A DNA stretch of 43,793 bases from positions 1 through 43,793 of the forward strand of contig JAPYTP010000028.1 of assembly GCA_029941885.1 (NCBI GenBank), given 5' to 3'. Below, one piece after another: positions 27,195 to 38,010 of the stretch (the first letter of the stretch is position 1; the number at the start of each line of letters is the position of its first letter). The position numbers were made by a program, and so were the translations under genes. The DNA comes from Myxococcota bacterium (GTDB lineage Bacteria; Myxococcota_A; UBA9160; UBA4427). The notes beneath the pieces are model-generated. The model did not search any database, was not told the DNA's origin, and saw nothing but the letters and a program-made list of their open reading frames with translations.

Positions 27195-28133
27195 TCAGCC
27201 ATGAGCCGCGCGATCGGGCTCGGTCGGTGACTCGTAGCCATAGGTCGGCGATAGCTCTGCCGCAACGAGTTCGTCGATCTGCGTCGACTCGTCATCAGTG
27301 AAATAGTCCTTGTAGCCGCCAACCTTCGCGCGACGAACCTTGTAGGAATCGGGATTGCCCTTCTTGCCAGGCTTCATCCGACCCCCCGCGAGCCAGAACA
27401 CATTCTTCTCTTCGAGCTTTCGCATGTTCTCTAGACTCGCGAACTCGACCGCCTCTGACACGGCCTCAGCGTCAGCGGGTACTCCGTTCGCGAATTCCAT
27501 CACCTGCCGAAGCGCCTCCTCGGGATCCGTGCGCATGTCCTCGTAGCGAATGACCAGCAAGTCGCTGACGTGGTCCGCCTCTCGAGCCCAGAGATTCAAG
27601 AAGTCGATGATCCCGGGAAGGCCGACGTGTTTGTCCATGACGAATTCGAAGGCGGGCACCTCGGTTCCATGCGCCGGGTACTTGTTGAGCTTCTTCTTGG
27701 CCGGGCGCATCCGATGTTGCCACTGGAAATATTGCGAGACCGCGATGTCTTTGGGGTTGCGAACGAGCAATACCACCTTCTTGGGATAAAAGGGGGCCTT
27801 CGAATCGAACTCACCCGTGTAGTCCTTGATGTAGTTGTCGTGCGTGAAGAATATCTTGGGAATCTCGGGGTTTCTGCGGTGGTAGTTGTCGAAGCCGAGT
27901 AGCACTCGCTCCGGGATCGAGAACGTAAGCTGGTAGTAGCGGGAGATCATCACGCGCAACCAGGTTCGTCCACTCTTGCCAAAGGACACGACTGCGACAT
28001 CCGCGCGCTCGAGTCGGCGGGTCTCGTCGCGGCCGCGCAGCCAGCGTTCCAGCCGGATCTTTCGGGCTTCCGGCAGCCAGAAAAGCAGCGCCAGAATCAC
28101 CTCGCGGCTTGCCTTCTTTAGGATCGAGTCCAT
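27195..28133 (-). CDS. PAPS-dependent sulfotransferase family protein
   Basis: 5'-PSB-like VVSFGKSGRTWLRVMISRYYQL and 3'-PB-like KVVLLVRNPKDIAVSQYFQW. Confidence 0.9.
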   Translation of the reverse strand: MDSILKKASREVILALLFWLPEARKIRLERWLRGRDETRRLERADVAVVSFGKSGRTWLRVMISRYYQLTFSIPERVLLGFDNYHRRNPEIPKIFFTHDNYIKDYTGEFDSKAPFYPKKVVLLVRNPKDIAVSQYFQWQHRMRPAKKKLNKYPAHGTEVPAFEFVMDKHVGLPGIIDFLNLWAREADHVSDLLVIRYEDMRTDPEEALRQVMEFANGVPADAEAVSEAVEFASLENMRKLEEKNVFWLAGGRMKPGKKGNPDSYKVRRAKVGGYKDYFTDDESTQIDELVAAELSPTYGYESPTEPDRAAHG

Positions 28134-28303: not shown

Positions 28304-30610
28304 GTGAACCCGACCCTCGCGCGGTCCCGTCGACCACACTCGAGCGCCACGCTGTCACGCTATCTGATTTCGGAGATGGTTCTGCCCTCGCTGTTTGCGT
28401 TGGTCGCCTTCGGCCTCGTCGTGCTGCTGACCGACCTGCTGGGCTACGTCGACCTGATCGTGAATCGCGGGCTCGGGACGAGCGAAGTGGCCGAGATCGC
28501 CGGTCTTCAGCTCCTCCCGACCCTCGCGCGAACACTCCCCTTTGCCATCCTCGTGGGCTCGCTCGTCGGCCTCGGCCGGCTCTCCGCCGATCGGGAACTT
28601 CTGGCCCTCGAAACCGCCGGTTACTCCGCGCGCCAGCTCGCTCGTCCGGGTCTCCTGTTCGCGTTCCTGGCGACGGTCTTCTCGGTCGTTCTGAGTGTCG
28701 CCATCTCGCCCGCGGCGCAGCGGTTGGTGCGAGACAAGATGATCGAATTGTCAGAAGAAAAGCCCGGTCTGGCACTTCGCGCGGGACTGGCGACGACCCT
28801 CGGCGGTTGGCGCATCGAAGCACGTGAAGTCGAAGACGAAGGCGCACGCCTCGCGGGGGTCCTGCTCTTCATGCCGACCCTCGGCGAAACCGTCTTCTCT
28901 AAACGCGGCGCCGTCCTGGTCGACGAACCCGGCGTGACGGGCTCGAGCGTGCGGAAGCGCCTCATCCTCGAGGATGGAATCGTACTTTCGAACGGCACCG
29001 AGCGCGCCTCGCTGCTGCGCTTCGATCGGATGGAGACGGAGCTTCCGGTGATCGAGGCCGAAGCCGACCTGCCCGTCGACGTGATCGTGACGCTTCCTTT
29101 TGGCGACGTCGTTCGCGCCGTCTGGGAACTCGAGGATCCGGTGGCAGCGCGCCCGGCACTCATCGAGGCCCATCGCCGGGTAGCCCTCGGCGCGGCCGCG
29201 CTGCCCTTCGGACTGCTCGCCATGGGTCTCGCCCTAGGCCGTCGTGATCTCTCCCGCTCGGGTGGCACCGTCATGGGCCTGATCGGCGCGATTGTCTACT
29301 ACGCCCTTGTGCAGTTCTCGGAGAGCATGCTCTACAATCCTAAGATACCCGTCGGACCCGTCGTCTGGTTCCCCAACTTCGTCCTCGTCAGCGTCGCCGC
29401 GGGACTCATCTTCCGCGCCGGCCGGACCGCCTCGGCTTCGGACCGAAGTCACGGCCGTGGCGCCAGCAACCTGCTCGAACGCGCGGGACTCGCTCGCAAG
29501 AAGTTGCGCATGAAGCGGTTCGCGCTCCCTCGCTACGTGAGCAGCCAGTTCATCCGCACGGTGGCCGTCTGCATCGTCGGCCTCGTGTTCGCCTATCTCG
29601 TGATCGATGTCTTCGACAATCTCAAATATTTCAACCAATACGGCGCGACTCTCAGCGAGATCGCACGTTTCTACAGCGCCCGTCTGCCCATCCTTGTCTG
29701 TCGTGTCATCCCGATGGCACTCCTGATCGCGGTCGCCCTCACCATCAGCCTGCTAGGCGAAAATGGCGAACTCCTCGGTATGCGTGCCTGCGGGATCCCC
29801 GTCTTTCGAGTTCTAGCACCGGTGTGGTTGTTATGCGGACTCGCGGTACCCGCCTATCATCTTATCGCCAATGAAATCGTGCCTCATTCCAGCGAAAGAG
29901 CCAAACGACTCAAGGACACTGAGATCAAGAACCGGACCACTGGCCCCGAGCTCCAACGCGAACGTGTCTGGTATCGCGTCGGTTCGCGGATCTACGAAAT
30001 GGGCCGATTGGACCTGCTCGATGGCATCGCGGACTCGGTGACTCTCTATGATCTCGGCGAAGACGGACTGCCGCGCCGACGAACCGACGCGGAACGAGCA
30101 CGCAACATCGGCCGCGACAGCGGATTGTGGCTCCTCGAGAATCCGCGCAGCGTCGAGCTCACCCAAGAGGGCAGACTCACGCGACTGGAGGATGTCGGCC
30201 ATCTCGCAGATTTCGGCGAGGAGACCCCCTCGGATATCGAAACCGCGCACATGACCCCGAGCGATCTTCGACTCGCCCTGGAGGATCCCGACCTCAACCC
30301 ACCCCTCGCATCCGCCTACCGAACGGATCTGCAGATGAAGATCGCGGCCCCACTGGCGTGTCTGCTGTTGCCGTTGATCGTACTCTTCTTCGCCGCAACG
30401 GGACCGCCCTTTCCACGGCCGGTCCACACTCTGATCGCCTGCGCGATCATTGCGGTCAGTCACGCCCTCGCGACGAGTTTCTCGGGATCGATGGGATACG
30501 GTGGCACGCTCGACCCGATCCTCGCCGGCTGGGGTCCGTCCATGCTCTTTGGAGCGATTGCTACGGGAATGGGCTTTCGACTGCGCCGGAAGCTCAGCCG
30601 ACCGGGCTAG
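28304..30610 (+). CDS. LptF-LptG fusion permease (YjgP/YjgQ family duplication in one chain)
   Basis: First half (SRYLISEMVLPSLFALVAFGLVVLLTDLLGYVDLIVNRG..LPFAILVGSLVGLGRLSADRELLALETAGYS) is LptF-like; second half (MKRFALPRYVSSQFIRTVAVCIVGLVFAYLVIDVFDNLKYF..IPMALLIAVALTISLLGENGELLGMRACGI) is LptG-like; no stop between. Confidence 0.9.
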   Translation: MNPTLARSRRPHSSATLSRYLISEMVLPSLFALVAFGLVVLLTDLLGYVDLIVNRGLGTSEVAEIAGLQLLPTLARTLPFAILVGSLVGLGRLSADRELLALETAGYSARQLARPGLLFAFLATVFSVVLSVAISPAAQRLVRDKMIELSEEKPGLALRAGLATTLGGWRIEAREVEDEGARLAGVLLFMPTLGETVFSKRGAVLVDEPGVTGSSVRKRLILEDGIVLSNGTERASLLRFDRMETELPVIEAEADLPVDVIVTLPFGDVVRAVWELEDPVAARPALIEAHRRVALGAAALPFGLLAMGLALGRRDLSRSGGTVMGLIGAIVYYALVQFSESMLYNPKIPVGPVVWFPNFVLVSVAAGLIFRAGRTASASDRSHGRGASNLLERAGLARKKLRMKRFALPRYVSSQFIRTVAVCIVGLVFAYLVIDVFDNLKYFNQYGATLSEIARFYSARLPILVCRVIPMALLIAVALTISLLGENGELLGMRACGIPVFRVLAPVWLLCGLAVPAYHLIANEIVPHSSERAKRLKDTEIKNRTTGPELQRERVWYRVGSRIYEMGRLDLLDGIADSVTLYDLGEDGLPRRRTDAERARNIGRDSGLWLLENPRSVELTQEGRLTRLEDVGHLADFGEETPSDIETAHMTPSDLRLALEDPDLNPPLASAYRTDLQMKIAAPLACLLLPLIVLFFAATGPPFPRPVHTLIACAIIAVSHALATSFSGSMGYGGTLDPILAGWGPSMLFGAIATGMGFRLRRKLSRPG

Positions 30611-30718: not shown

Positions 30719-31882
30719 TTGCCGGGTCAGGAAGCGAACCAGAATCCGGCGAGATCGAGCCAGCAGTCGAGCGTTCCGCTCACCTGGCTTCTGATGGGAA
30801 ATCGGGCAGGGGACAACTCCCAGGTCCTTGGGCTCGGAGAGGCCCTCGGCTGGCGTATCGAGGAGAAGCATTTCGCTTTCCAGCCCTACGAGAAGATCGT
30901 GAACCTTCCCTGGGGCGCCCACCTCCTGGGCGTCGCACGCGAGGAGTCCAGCGAGCTCGAGGCGCCCTGGCCCGACGTCGTGATCAGCGCAGGCCGAAAG
31001 AATGAACCGATCGCACGCTATATCCGCAAGCGAGCCTTGCGTGAGGCGGGAAAGCGCGTCCGACTGGTTCATGTCGGGCGCCCCTGGGCCGGCCCACCGA
31101 CCTGGGATCTCGTCATTACGACGCCCCAATATCGTCTACCCCAGGACCCGAATATCGTCCACAACGATACCCCGCTCCACCGGGTCACCCGCGCCCGGCT
31201 CGATGGGGCGGCAGCGAACTGGCGCGATCGCGTAGCCGACCTGCCGCGGCCCCTCGTGGCGGTCCTGTGCGGGGGGAACTCGGGCCCCTACCCTTTCGAC
31301 CGCGCGTCCGGCGAGAGATTGGCTGATCAGGCCGACGCTCTCGCACGGGAATTCGGAGGCTCGCTACTCGTCACGACCAGCGCGCGAACCCTCGACGAAA
31401 CCACCGACGCCCTCTTCTCCCGGATCCAGTCGCCGTCGGTTCTCTATCGCTGGAAGATGGATGACCCCGACAACCCCTTCTTCGCGTTCCTGGGCCTCGC
31501 GGACCGTGTGATCGTAACCGCCGACAGCGTCTCGATGATGGCGGAATCCTGTGTGACGGGGCGGCCGGTCTATCTCTACGACACCGGCGAGGGCAAGACT
31601 TCGATGAAGCATAATCCCTGGCTCGACGGCGTCGGGGAGGCGTCGGAGATCGAGGACGGGACCTCCACGAGCGGATTCAGCCGCTGGCACCTCAAGGCGC
31701 AAATCTACCGCCTGACGATGCGCATGGGTCCACAACGCCTGACGCGCGACATTCGCATCGTCCAGCAGCTCCTGATCGACACGAAGCGCGCGGTCTGGTT
31801 GGGCGACGGGCATCCGGGCTCGGAGCCGCCACCGCTCGAGGACATGGCACGGGCGGTCGCGCGCGTGCGGGCGCTCATCTAG
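30719..31882 (+). CDS. ELM1 (mito_fiss_Elm1/COG3660-like) family protein, copy 1
   Basis: WLLMGNRAGDNSQVLGLGEALGW..PWPDVVISAGRKN..RLVHVGRPWAGPPTWDLVITTPQYRLP..VAVLCGGNSGPYPF..RVIVTADSVSMMAESCVTGRPVYLYD. Confidence 0.85.
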   Translation: MPGQEANQNPARSSQQSSVPLTWLLMGNRAGDNSQVLGLGEALGWRIEEKHFAFQPYEKIVNLPWGAHLLGVAREESSELEAPWPDVVISAGRKNEPIARYIRKRALREAGKRVRLVHVGRPWAGPPTWDLVITTPQYRLPQDPNIVHNDTPLHRVTRARLDGAAANWRDRVADLPRPLVAVLCGGNSGPYPFDRASGERLADQADALAREFGGSLLVTTSARTLDETTDALFSRIQSPSVLYRWKMDDPDNPFFAFLGLADRVIVTADSVSMMAESCVTGRPVYLYDTGEGKTSMKHNPWLDGVGEASEIEDGTSTSGFSRWHLKAQIYRLTMRMGPQRLTRDIRIVQQLLIDTKRAVWLGDGHPGSEPPPLEDMARAVARVRALI

Positions 31883-32982: not shown

Positions 32983-34128
32983 TCACTCGCTTCCACCGAC
33001 GAGTGCTCGAATTCGCTCGGCGGCTCGTTCGAGGGCGTCGTCCTCATAGACCGCGGGCAGAACCTCCGGTTCTCCGAGCCATCCCGCCAGACCCATCTCG
33101 ACGAGTCGCCGCGAGATCGCCGTCAGGTCCCGGGAATGGATCGGCCGCCCGATCGCCGCCAGCGCGCGTGCTGCCAGACCCCCGGCTGGAATCGGATCTG
33201 TTCGCGGCGAGGAGGTCTCGAGCAGCCCGACTGCCACGAGCCCGCGCTCGATCGCACCGGCCTCTCGCTCGAGTGGATGGATCCGCAGGGGGCGCCCCAG
33301 CTGTGCGACCTCGACCATCATGGACAGGCTGTCCGCGGTCACCACAAAATCGTCAGCGAGTGCCAGAAGTCCCTGGTAGGGATTCTCCTCCCAAGCCGAG
33401 TCCGGATCGTAGAAGTAGAGTTGAGCCGAATCGGAATACGATCCGCGAAGCCAATTGGCCACGGCTGCAGGAGTCCGCCTGCTCGTCGTTATGTAGAGCG
33501 AGCCGCGTTGGGCGGCGACGACCTCGAGAGTCTTTTCGAGAAGATCCTGCGCCGTTCTGACATCGAATCGAAGGCCACCCGTTGGCCCGCCGACCATCAG
33601 GGCGGTCAACGGAGGGGGAAGCAGGGTCAGGCGCCCCTGCCATGCCTTTTTCGCAGCGGCAAGAGCATCCGGATCTACCTGATTCAGCGGGAACGCATGG
33701 CGTGCCACATTGGGTGCGTCAGAAATAACATAGTGGGCCGCGACTACGATCAGATCGAACTTCTCTGCGCGCCCGCGCGGTTTCCCGATCACGACGAGCC
33801 GCGTTCGTCCCTGCGAGGCCCGTTTTATCCACAAGCCCACGCTCGCCAGCCGCCGGCCCGCCGTAATCACGAGATGGGGCCATGGTCCTTCTAGCGGGTC
33901 AGAGCGATCCCGATCGACGTGATCGAGCGACGCGCGCACGAGCGGCTTTCCGTCCACCCAGGCGGGTGCCACCCGGATCATCTTCTCCTCGAATGCCCAA
34001 CCCACCGCGAGCGCAAGGTTGCGGATTTGCGCGTTGTCGCCGCGCTTCTCACCGACGATGAGCCAAACCCGGGGCGAATCCGCAACCGTTCCCATCCCGC
34101 GAATCGCTCGATCGACTTCTTCGGACAT
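32983..34128 (-). CDS. ELM1 family protein, copy 2
   Basis: VWLIVGEKRGDNAQIRNLALAVGW..PWPHLVITAGRRLAS..LVVIGKPRGRAEKFDLIVVAAHYVI..ALMVGGPTGGLRF..DDFVVTADSLSMMVEVAQLGRPLRIH, the same architecture as copy 1. Confidence 0.85.
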   Translation of the reverse strand: MSEEVDRAIRGMGTVADSPRVWLIVGEKRGDNAQIRNLALAVGWAFEEKMIRVAPAWVDGKPLVRASLDHVDRDRSDPLEGPWPHLVITAGRRLASVGLWIKRASQGRTRLVVIGKPRGRAEKFDLIVVAAHYVISDAPNVARHAFPLNQVDPDALAAAKKAWQGRLTLLPPPLTALMVGGPTGGLRFDVRTAQDLLEKTLEVVAAQRGSLYITTSRRTPAAVANWLRGSYSDSAQLYFYDPDSAWEENPYQGLLALADDFVVTADSLSMMVEVAQLGRPLRIHPLEREAGAIERGLVAVGLLETSSPRTDPIPAGGLAARALAAIGRPIHSRDLTAISRRLVEMGLAGWLGEPEVLPAVYEDDALERAAERIRALVGGSE

Positions 34129-34260
34129 GCCCCCGCCTCGACTGGAAAATACCACCCTCTCCGATCGAGGCCCTTAAAGAGCGTCCACGGCAAGGACATT
34201 CCGGCAGTCCCCGCCGAAGGTACGGATCCCCGAACTCACCACGCCTCGAATCCCTGACCT

Positions 34261-35487
34261 ATGCTCCGGCGCCCGATCGACCCGAGGCTCCAGATGACCG
34301 CAGCCATCCCCGCAATCCGATTCGAAGAAGAAGTCGTCCTCGACGAGGCGCGGCGGCGCGCGAAGCTCGATGATTTCGGCGGCGATCTCTTTCTCGACCC
34401 GATGCGCCGGCTGCTCGAGGGCCTCGAGAACGAGGCGAACCTGCACGCCGTCGGGCGGGTGACCCTATTCGAACGGATCGTCGGGAGCCTGGTGGGGCGT
34501 CTCTCCGCACAGAACTATTTCGTCCGGCATCCCGAGATCCTCGAAGAGGTCATCGTCGCACCAACGGTGATCGTTGGACTCGCGAGAACCGGGAGCACCA
34601 TGATGCATCGGCTCCTCTCCGCCGATCCGAATGTCTACGCCGTACGTTGGTGGGAATGCCGTTCACCCTCGCCCTACCCGGGCTCGGATTGGCGCCACGC
34701 GGATCCGCGGATCCCGGATGCCCACGCCGAGGTCGAAGCGATTCTCGCGGCGGCGCCAGAGCTTGCCTCGATTCATCCCTGGGACGCCGAAGGCCCGGAC
34801 GAGGAGATCATGCTGCTCGAGCACGCCTTTCTGTCCGGTGTGCCTGATGCCTTCTGCAATGTCCCGAGCTATCGGCGTTTCATCCTCGAGAGCGATCTCC
34901 GGGACGGTTACGCGTATATGAAGCGGATGCTGCAGTTCCTGCAATGGCAGAAGAAGGAAGCGGGACACCCCGCGGAGCGATGGATTCTCAAGGCGCCCTT
35001 CCACCTCGGCCGAATCCCCCAGATCTTCGAATTCTTCCCCGACGCGACGATCGTCCAGACTCACAGAGATCCCCTCGAGACTTCCCCGTCGATCGCGAGC
35101 CTCTACTGCTCGACGTGGCGCACGAACGCCGACGACGTGGATCCCCGGATCGTCGGTGAGCAGTGCCTCGAACTGTGGTCCTGGGGAATCGCGAAATGCC
35201 TTGCCGATCGCGACGCGGGTCTCGAAGACCGATTCATCGACGTGCTCTACGAGAATACACGCGAGGACCCGATGGGGTCGATCGAACTGATCTACGAGCG
35301 ACTCGGGCGCCCCTTCACTGATGAGGCCCGCAAGGCGATGAAGCGATGGGGTGACGACAACCGCCGGGACAAGCGCGCCGCTCACGCCTATTCGCTCGAG
35401 GAATTCGGCTATACCCGCGAGGGAATCTGCGAGGCGTTCGACGAATATCGGCAGCGATTCATCGTAGGCGCCGCGACGAGTCGTTAG
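34261..35487 (+). CDS. Sulfotransferase family protein
   Basis: VIVGLARTGSTMMHRLLSADPN (5'-PSB-like), AERWILKAPFHLGRIPQIFEFFPDATIVQTHRDPLETSPSIASLY. Confidence 0.9.
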   Translation: MLRRPIDPRLQMTAAIPAIRFEEEVVLDEARRRAKLDDFGGDLFLDPMRRLLEGLENEANLHAVGRVTLFERIVGSLVGRLSAQNYFVRHPEILEEVIVAPTVIVGLARTGSTMMHRLLSADPNVYAVRWWECRSPSPYPGSDWRHADPRIPDAHAEVEAILAAAPELASIHPWDAEGPDEEIMLLEHAFLSGVPDAFCNVPSYRRFILESDLRDGYAYMKRMLQFLQWQKKEAGHPAERWILKAPFHLGRIPQIFEFFPDATIVQTHRDPLETSPSIASLYCSTWRTNADDVDPRIVGEQCLELWSWGIAKCLADRDAGLEDRFIDVLYENTREDPMGSIELIYERLGRPFTDEARKAMKRWGDDNRRDKRAAHAYSLEEFGYTREGICEAFDEYRQRFIVGAATSR

Positions 35488-36650
35488 GCAGATTCGTGGT
35501 CGAGACGCGCTGCGAGACGCGCGAGTATCTCGTGACCTTCGTCGAAGGCGTCCCGCTTGTCATCAGAATCGAGCCGCGCCAGCGCACTCAGTCCAACCGC
35601 CGGCAAGAGCGCGCACCACGCCGAGGCCTCTGTGAGACCCCGCAGAAAACGACGTCGGTCGATCCGGGGATGTCGCCGGATTCCGCAGGCGAGCGCACCG
35701 ACGGCGATCCACGCTGCAGAAAACTGAAAATGGGAGCGCTCTCGACGATCTGCTTCCTCTCGTCCCACGTCGAGCAGTTGGTGGGCGAGATCGAAGGTGC
35801 GCGGATCAGGCTTGATCCGCCGCGAAGCGGCGTAGGTCGTTGTCTCGAGACCGAGTCGCAACTCTGCGCGAAAGCCGAAATGATCGGATAGGGATCGGTC
35901 TTCTTCGCGAATCCGCGCGGGCTCCGCGAAGAGCAGACGAGCGTCGGCCGAGGTCCACGTGGTCTCCGCGCCAGGGCGCACGAAGAGAAAGTCGATTTGC
36001 TTGTCCTGCCCCGACCGATGGCGCTTGTAGAAATTGGTTCGCGAAAGTGTGGAATGCCGGCTTCCTCCGCCGAGCTCGATCGCCCCCCCCAGGGCGAGAA
36101 AGATCTCGTATTCGGGATCTCCCAATGCGCAGTTGAAGTCGCCGCCCAGGACGGTGGTCCCATCCAGCTCGACCAGGCGAGCGACGATCTGGAGCAGCTG
36201 TGCGGTGCGAACAGCACTGTTCAGCCGCGGACGCGAGCGGCGGTAGCGAGCGTGGAGATGGGTGTTGATGAGCGCCAGCGGTCCAGTCTCCGCTTCGATC
36301 GTCATCGTCTGGAAGCCTTTGCCACCCAGGAACTCCCCCTTGGCAAGGCGCTCCGGATCGCCCCGGAAATGGAATCGATCGAAACGCGCGGACCGGATCG
36401 GCCAGCGGGAAAGGGTCATCAATCCGCCGCTGCCATCGGGCCCCGCTGCCACTTCGAACCCCGCGGCCCGCGCACCGGCCACGAGCGTCTCTCGGACTTC
36501 ATCGGTCCAGGCTTCCTGGATCAGCAGCAGGTCGAGGTCGGATCGGGAGAGCCGGTCGGCGATCACTCTCATGCGCGATGAGACGTCATCCCCGAACCCG
36601 AAGGTCTCGGGGAGCCCCCACACGTTGAAAGTGCCTATACGCAGCGACAC
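35484..36650 (-). CDS. Endonuclease/exonuclease/phosphatase (EEP) family protein
   Basis: LRIGTFNVWGLPE, LLLIQEAW, LINTHLHARY, LGGDFNCALGDPEY, SDHFGFRAEL. Confidence 0.88.
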   Translation of the reverse strand: MSLRIGTFNVWGLPETFGFGDDVSSRMRVIADRLSRSDLDLLLIQEAWTDEVRETLVAGARAAGFEVAAGPDGSGGLMTLSRWPIRSARFDRFHFRGDPERLAKGEFLGGKGFQTMTIEAETGPLALINTHLHARYRRSRPRLNSAVRTAQLLQIVARLVELDGTTVLGGDFNCALGDPEYEIFLALGGAIELGGGSRHSTLSRTNFYKRHRSGQDKQIDFLFVRPGAETTWTSADARLLFAEPARIREEDRSLSDHFGFRAELRLGLETTTYAASRRIKPDPRTFDLAHQLLDVGREEADRRERSHFQFSAAWIAVGALACGIRRHPRIDRRRFLRGLTEASAWCALLPAVGLSALARLDSDDKRDAFDEGHEILARLAARLDHESA

Positions 36651-37005
36651 GCAACCTCCGCGTTCCGTCTTCGAATACCCGTCCTTCTCCATGGTCCGGG
36701 CGGGCCCGCCTGTCCAGAATCTGTGCAAGGAGCAGGCCGGATAACGCGCCCGTTCGGGCCCGTTTCATATCCCCGAGACACCTCCGCGGTCTTCGAGGTG
36801 CACTGCCGATTTCCTGCGCTCCCGCAGACCTGTCGTGAGAGGTCGAAAGTCTCCCAATATGGGAAACGATCGTCCCATTTCCGGCGCTTCCGTTCCTCGT
36901 GAAGAGGATTCGTCGGGGAGGCCCGTTCGCGCCACCAGGCCGCGCGGCCTTCGCTATGGTGCGGCCTCCCTTCGACCCGCGGCCGCGTGCCGCCCCGAGG
37001 AAGCC

Positions 37006-38010
37006 GTGCAAAAGATCGACCTCGCAAGCGAACTCGAAGCCGCCGTCGTCGCGGTTCGCGATGCCGCCACCGTCTGTCTGAGCGTTCAGAAGAACCTCGT
37101 CACGGCCGCGACCCTGGAAAAGAAGGACCGCAGCCCCGTCACCGTCGCCGATTTCGCCTCCCAGGCCCTGGTCTGCTCCTCCCTCGCCGGGAGTTCGAAG
37201 ATCTCCGCGGTGGTCGGCGAAGAGGACGCCGCGGAACTGCGCGACGCCGGCGCGGAAGAGACCCACGACAAGGTCGTCGAGCATGTCCGAAACGTGCGCG
37301 GTGCCGACATCGAAAGCGGCCAGGCACTCGATTGGATCGACCTCGGCGGCGTCACCCCCGACGCGTCAACCCCGCAGTACTGGACCCTCGATCCAATCGA
37401 CGGAACCAAGGGCTTTCTGCGCGGCGAGCAGTACGCGATCGCCCTCGGGCTGCTCGAACATGGCCGCGTCGTCGTCGGCGTCCTCGGCTGCCCGAATCTT
37501 CCGGGGCCCGATGGCCAACCCGGTTGCCTGCTGACCGCCACCCGTGGCGGCGGCGCCCAGATCCGTCCGCTCGCGGCCTCGGGCCGGGACGGCGCCGTGG
37601 ATATCCGCGTGAGCGACATTACAGACACCGCTGCGGCACGCTTCTGCGAGTCCGTCGAGTCCGGTCACAGTGACCAGGGCCAGAGCGCCCAGATCGCCAA
37701 GGCGCTCAACATCACGGCAGAACCCGTGCGCGTCGACAGTCAGTGCAAATACGCGATCGTCGGCCAGGGACAGGCGCAGATCTATCTGCGACTCCCGACC
37801 CGAAAGGATTATCGGGAAAAGATCTGGGATCATGCTGCGGGCTTGATCGTCGTCGAAGAAGCCGGAGGGCGGGTCACCGACGTTCGCGGCAACGATCTCG
37901 ACTTCGGCCACGGCCGCCAGCTCGAGAACAACTCCGGGGTGATCGCGACCAACGGTCCGATCCACGACGAAGTACTGAAGGTCGTCGATCAGTTCGTCGA
38001 CGTCTCGTAG
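37006..38010 (+). CDS. 3'(2'),5'-bisphosphate nucleotidase (CysQ/HAL2-like inositol monophosphatase family)
   Basis: KDRSPVTVADFASQALV, VGEEDAAELR, YWTLDPIDGTKGFLRGEQYAIALGL, IWDHAAGLIVVEEAGGRVTDVRG. Confidence 0.9.
   Translation: MQKIDLASELEAAVVAVRDAATVCLSVQKNLVTAATLEKKDRSPVTVADFASQALVCSSLAGSSKISAVVGEEDAAELRDAGAEETHDKVVEHVRNVRGADIESGQALDWIDLGGVTPDASTPQYWTLDPIDGTKGFLRGEQYAIALGLLEHGRVVVGVLGCPNLPGPDGQPGCLLTATRGGGAQIRPLAASGRDGAVDIRVSDITDTAAARFCESVESGHSDQGQSAQIAKALNITAEPVRVDSQCKYAIVGQGQAQIYLRLPTRKDYREKIWDHAAGLIVVEEAGGRVTDVRGNDLDFGHGRQLENNSGVIATNGPIHDEVLKVVDQFVDVS

Follow-up and report, generated by a model that had tools for sequence, protein, structure and literature searches.

The window analysed here, a 43,793-nucleotide contig of a Myxococcota bacterium, carries one gene in which an LptF-like and an LptG-like permease are joined on a single chain. 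This single-chain LptFG permease is probably an old fusion that outlived the separate LptF/LptG pair, is now the only LptF/LptG of its genome and carries LPS export. Canonical LptF and LptG are separate, asymmetric subunits.

Two permease units in one open reading frame

The fusion gene (28304..30610, + strand) encodes 768 aa in a single open frame that runs from a GTG start at 28304, with a fair Shine-Dalgarno sequence (AAGAGGA, duplex -6.0 kcal/mol), to a TAG stop at 30608-30610; from stop to stop, the frame measures 823 aa. The PF03739 domain was identified twice within it, at residues 19-369 (profile positions 1-351) and 410-753 (profile positions 1-347), and each half alone scores far above the curated cut-off of 27.9 bits (185.6 bits for the N-half and 186.9 bits for the C-half), which confirms the earlier note's description of one uninterrupted frame with two permease units. 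The LptF-like half (residues 17-376; 28352..29431, + strand) is composed of three transmembrane helices (TM), a periplasmic beta-jellyroll and three further TM. It is followed by a basic linker of ~26 aa on the cytoplasmic side (residues 377-402; 29432..29509, + strand) and by the LptG-like half (residues 403-768; 29510..30607, + strand). Given that the halves are fused on one chain, the LptF:LptG stoichiometry is fixed at 1:1.

The N-half scores higher with the LptF model TIGR04407 (141.7 bits) than with the LptG model TIGR04408 (86.2 bits), and the C-half shows the reverse order (162.1 bits for TIGR04408 versus 76.4 bits for TIGR04407). The curated equivalog cut-offs, 230 bits for TIGR04407 and 240 bits for TIGR04408, are reached by neither half alone, and by the summed halves (248 bits) for LptG (TIGR04408) only. 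By profile ranking, the right family comes first for both halves, but these are better called LptF-like and LptG-like than strict equivalogs.

The AlphaFold model of the fusion (32-sequence alignment; pLDDT 85.6, pTM 0.80) consists of two halves with six TM and a jellyroll each. In the N-half, helices are predicted at residues 15-152, strands at 164-246 and helices at 279-374, and in the C-half helices at 407-541, strands at 552-636 and helices at 666-765, with the TM split 3+3 around the jellyroll in both units. Model confidence is low in the linker at residues 378-400 (pLDDT <50 at residues 378-386 and 393-400), the cytoplasmic placement of which is compatible with the model. In the established topology, the C-terminus of LptF and the N-terminus of LptG are both cytoplasmic, and a short linker is enough to join them. 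The best Foldseek matches of the model are the LptF and LptG chains of LptB2FG structures, with TM-scores of 0.62-0.85 by target length. The coupling-helix glutamates equivalent to LptF E84 and LptG E88 are residues 98 and 489 of the fusion, and are invariant in 33 of 33 fusions as well as in the separate genes; this conserved Glu of LptF and LptG has been tied to LptB docking (PMC10094684). Together, the invariance of E98 and E489 and the matches to solved LptF and LptG chains support a genuine fusion of LptF (N-half) with LptG (C-half). A chain with one dead half was ruled out, as both halves are complete, constrained and modelled.

While the interpretation as an LptF-LptG fusion with two intact halves stood, the accompanying suggestion that internal initiation could yield free LptG was not supported. 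In that case the fusion and free LptG would both be made and the working complex would consist of separate chains, which we regard as very unlikely. An in-frame ATG is present at 29510, the N-terminus read from there is well LptG-like (MKRFALPRYVSSQF), and the ATG also lies in the RMKR motif of genus-mates. However, it has no Shine-Dalgarno sequence (duplex -1.1 kcal/mol, equalled or bettered by 73% of the in-frame codons) and is conserved within the genus only, the linkers of other fusions mostly lacking Met (any Met occurs in just 9 of 34 fusion linkers, mostly those of the window's genus). From the Shine-Dalgarno score and linker conservation, ATG 29510 was judged an in-frame Met that is probably no start.

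Recurrence and ancestry of the fusion

The distribution of such fusions, a check raised by the earlier note, was followed in a set of 61 genomes comprising the window's own and its relatives. The fusion was found in at least 33 of the 61, across six families of one order of Myxococcota (eight of nine genomes in the genus, 10 in the family's other genera and 15 in five other families). These 33 include the fusions of G035 (L052), the frame of which is interrupted, and of G014 (L047), which is cut by a contig end. Among the matches listed, about 18 relatives have separate genes only, and a few genomes were left out of this classification. The linkers of 34 fusions have a median length of 26.5 aa (14-47) and a median net charge of +5, and are mostly basic. 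A scan of plasmids with the profile returned single-unit matches only and no two-unit fusion.

This recurrence bears on whether the single frame could stem from an error of assembly or sequencing, or from the recent loss of a stop between two ordinary genes. The source is a MAG, and the lptF and lptG genes of E. coli overlap tip to tail, so that one error could join them. However, the same in-frame fusion is found in at least 33 genomes with linkers that differ in length, and also on a 363-kb contig of a relative, the Deltaproteobacteria MAG SP3084 (Myxococcota according to NCBI; L013), at 81% identity, the one locus obtained in a scan of genome contigs. Both explanations are therefore ruled out, and we give them a negligible probability. 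A frameshift or stop near the junction, named by the earlier note as a case against a fusion, is likewise countered by the same in-frame fusion across relatives. Because the two-unit frame recurs, it reflects neither chance nor a stop lost in assembly.

Selection is purifying in both the N-half and the C-half, with dN/dS of 0.07-0.22, and values are higher in the linker where measurable. A tree of 117 domains including E. coli LptF and LptG (quick IQ-TREE run with SH-aLRT support, root not inferred) resolves a single clade of 33 N-halves (97), on the E. coli LptF side, and a single clade of 33 C-halves (99), on the E. coli LptG side. The separate genes group in an LptF clade (35 rows, 99) and an LptG clade (14 rows, 98) of their own. 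Distances among the N-halves are correlated with those among the C-halves (Mantel r 0.835, 0/2000 permutations). This pattern is expected if the halves were fused once, long ago, and have been passed on together since; such a fusion, coexisting with the separate pair, would be the simplest reading.

Separate lptF and lptG lost, other LPS genes kept

The separate lptF of relatives is part of the LPS locus, together with lpxB, waaA, lpxK, a Kdo/WaaP kinase gene, heptosyltransferase genes and an HldE-like gene, and their separate lptG adjoins ribF and a secretion ATPase gene. Most relatives with the fusion also keep both. In the window's genome, the PF03739 search gave no match beyond the two units of the fusion. 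This genome keeps LpxA, LpxI, LpxB, WaaA, LpxK, WaaP and heptosyltransferases, and its LPS locus is contiguous and intact (lpxA, lpxI, lpxB, waaA, lpxK, waaP, two heptosyltransferase genes, GT2 and HldE-like). The separate lptF, however, is not present in its syntenic position, which lies between waaP and the heptosyltransferase gene (L103:10897-11135, G000:C18) and holds lptF in genus-mate G001; no convincing remnant was recognized in the ~240 bases of this site. Next to ribF, a truncated and frameshifted remnant of lptG is found (L107:6142-6583, G000:C47), which covers residues 2-99 and 115-154 of 381 in different frames, the rest being gone; five genus-mates (G001-G005) have an intact lptG. 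Since the flanks of the remnant are 84-96% identical to G001, the contig comes from the same lineage and contamination is unlikely. The search for stand-alone lptF or lptG in the host, as proposed earlier, thus yielded no intact copy, lptF being absent and lptG a pseudogene. The fusion is a lineage-wide paralogue of the separate LptF/LptG pair, the pair having been lost in the window's genome. The fusion is the sole LptF/LptG found there, and hence most likely the sole LPS-export permease. As the host genome is an incomplete MAG (92.4% completeness and 6.2% contamination, in 500 contigs), it could contain a further, unassembled copy of lptF or lptG.

Genes for the cognate LptB (354.9 bits), LptA (57.7 bits) and LptD (67.7 bits) were identified in the window's genome, together with a candidate LptC gene that is a weak match (E 0.028) directly upstream of lptA. 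A single LptB above the cut-off was found in this genome (G000) and in most relatives tested. The LptA proteins of the order (L054:7395-8501, - strand; L055:6083-7102, + strand; L056:4747-5835, + strand) have ~340-370 aa, with an additional N-terminal domain of ~170 aa ahead of the LptA jellyroll. This domain had no convincing Pfam match, and the LptA structure prediction was of low confidence.

Gene neighbourhood of the fusion

Directly downstream of the fusion, on the same strand, lies an ELM1-family glycosyltransferase gene (30719..31882, + strand; PF06258, 198.6 bits), an adjacency conserved in the genus, and a second gene of this family is found at 32983..34155 (- strand; PF06258, 201.4 bits). 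The ELM1 family includes the inner-core Kdo transferase KdoT (PMC12856342), which puts a third Kdo onto Acinetobacter LOS (PMC12856342, PMC10936431). Divergent from the fusion is a sulfotransferase gene (27195..28133, - strand; PF00685, 89.2 bits) that is conserved beside it in the genus and, as cluster 15, is present at 10 fusion loci. After the ELM1 genes, positions 34261-38010 of the window encode a second sulfotransferase of the same cluster (34261..35487, + strand; PF13469, 132.6 bits), an endonuclease/exonuclease/phosphatase-family protein and an inositol monophosphatase-family protein, which together may form a cluster for a glycolipid that carries sulfate or inositol.

Genes found beside the fusion in deeper relatives include those for a nucleotidyltransferase, a CDP-alcohol phosphatidyltransferase, KdsA and an MsbA/HepA-like ABC exporter, and among the neighbours of the fusions there are also diacylglycerol-kinase-like, sulfotransferase and glycosyltransferase genes. 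KdsA is encoded at several fusion loci, and no neighbour gene is universal among the fusion loci compared. The neighbours in deeper relatives leave room for a second substrate where both systems are kept.

Proposed role and alternative explanations

In the proposed mechanism, the LptF-like and LptG-like halves would fold as a pseudo-heterodimer with the short basic linker between them in the cytoplasm, and the two coupling helices would dock onto an LptB dimer. Driven by ATP, the cavity would then collapse and lift a lipid A-based glycolipid (LPS/LOS) from the inner membrane, to be passed on to LptC-LptA-LptD, the jellyroll bridge. The fusion would predate the diversification of the order and have coexisted with the separate LptF/LptG pair, until the window's lineage lost the pair and LPS export fell to the fusion as the only LptF/LptG permease. 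The structure of the gene, the identity of its domains, their conservation and selection, the loss or decay of the separate pair and the persistence of LPS and other lpt genes are direct findings; we infer the assembly with LptB, LPS as the substrate and the sufficiency of the fusion. That the fusion would carry LPS export is suggested by the separate pair being gone while the lipid A, Kdo and heptose genes remain.

Alternatively, the fusion could be dedicated to another glycolipid, such as one that is sulfated or linked to phosphoinositol, as a second exporter of the Lpt type that uses the same LptB and bridge as the separate LPS exporter. The window's lineage would then have either lost LPS export or moved LPS onto the fusion secondarily. 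Most fusion-bearing relatives also hold the separate lptF and lptG, and this usual retention of both argues for distinct roles. Moreover, lptF lies in the lipid A/Kdo locus and the fusions lie among CDP-alcohol phosphatidyltransferase, sulfotransferase and other such genes, and in the ~18 relatives with separate genes and without a fusion the latter is dispensable. Yet the window's genome is without the separate pair and keeps its lipid A, Kdo and heptose genes, KdsA is found at several fusion loci, and the gene closest to the fusion encodes a glycosyltransferase of the ELM1 family, to which the LOS enzyme KdoT belongs (PMC12856342). With no neighbour being universal, no substrate is pinned down by the neighbourhood. 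On balance, we consider this explanation unlikely. A tentative possibility, to which we give slightly more weight, is that across the order the fusion serves as a parallel exporter of another surface glycolipid through the shared LptB and bridge, and that in the window's lineage it also took over LPS after the canonical pair decayed.

Comparison with known systems

The fusion shares the PF03739 fold, the coupling-helix Glu and the LptF/LptG identity with the LptB2FG LPS extractors of E. coli, Pseudomonas, Klebsiella, Acinetobacter and Vibrio, the structures of which rank first among its PDB matches in both sequence and fold comparisons. In contrast to the separate subunits of these solved complexes, it is one chain with a linker (14-47 aa among the fusions), and by fold comparison it is ~17-20% identical to the solved chains. 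It also lacks the basic cluster in TM1 of E. coli LptG, which we take to be K34, K40 and K41 and which is replaced by D/K/Y in the window's fusion. At the K34 position, D is invariant in the fusions and E is mostly found in the separate LptG of the order, so that the cluster is not general in this order. As a marker of LPS versus another substrate it was set aside as uninformative, since the separate LptG of the order is also without it. A basic cluster in TMH1 of LptG, for the lipid A phosphates, is confirmed in the literature without residue numbers (PMC10094684).

The separate LptF and LptG of the order belong to the same families and have the same likely LptB partner, but are encoded by unlinked genes, form their own clades and are lost in the window's genome. 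Fused parts on one chain are common in ABC transporters, as in TMD-NBD fusions (PMC10094684). Half-size ABC exporters and similar systems resemble the fusion in having transporter parts on one chain; here, however, two membrane subunits are joined and the ATPase is separate. A literature search of partial coverage found no paper describing an LptF-LptG fusion. Domain databases may already contain PF03739 architectures with two units. The parts are known, and what is new is the single-chain form and its probable takeover from the separate pair.

The natural tether sets which half meets which, and a tethered LptFG could ease structural and single-molecule work on LPS entry through one LptF:LptG interface. 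The order itself offers a natural experiment, with genomes that have two LptFG systems, the separate pair only, the fusion only (the window's genome) or none, which makes the question of a second LptFG for a second lipid testable and shows how a paralogue can take the place of an essential transporter. Six genomes of the window's family (G011, G018, G024, G026, G028 and G029), five of which belong to a single genus (g11), gave no LptF/LptG match; either LPS export or LPS itself may have been lost in them. In the fusion of G005 (L019, contig C111), the N-half has a gap in the jellyroll, with profile positions ~220-275 missing. Some genomes carry two different fusions that fall into separate sub-clades of the tree, namely G001 (L014 on C49 and L015 on C9), G027 (L030 and L031) and G056 (L041 and L048).
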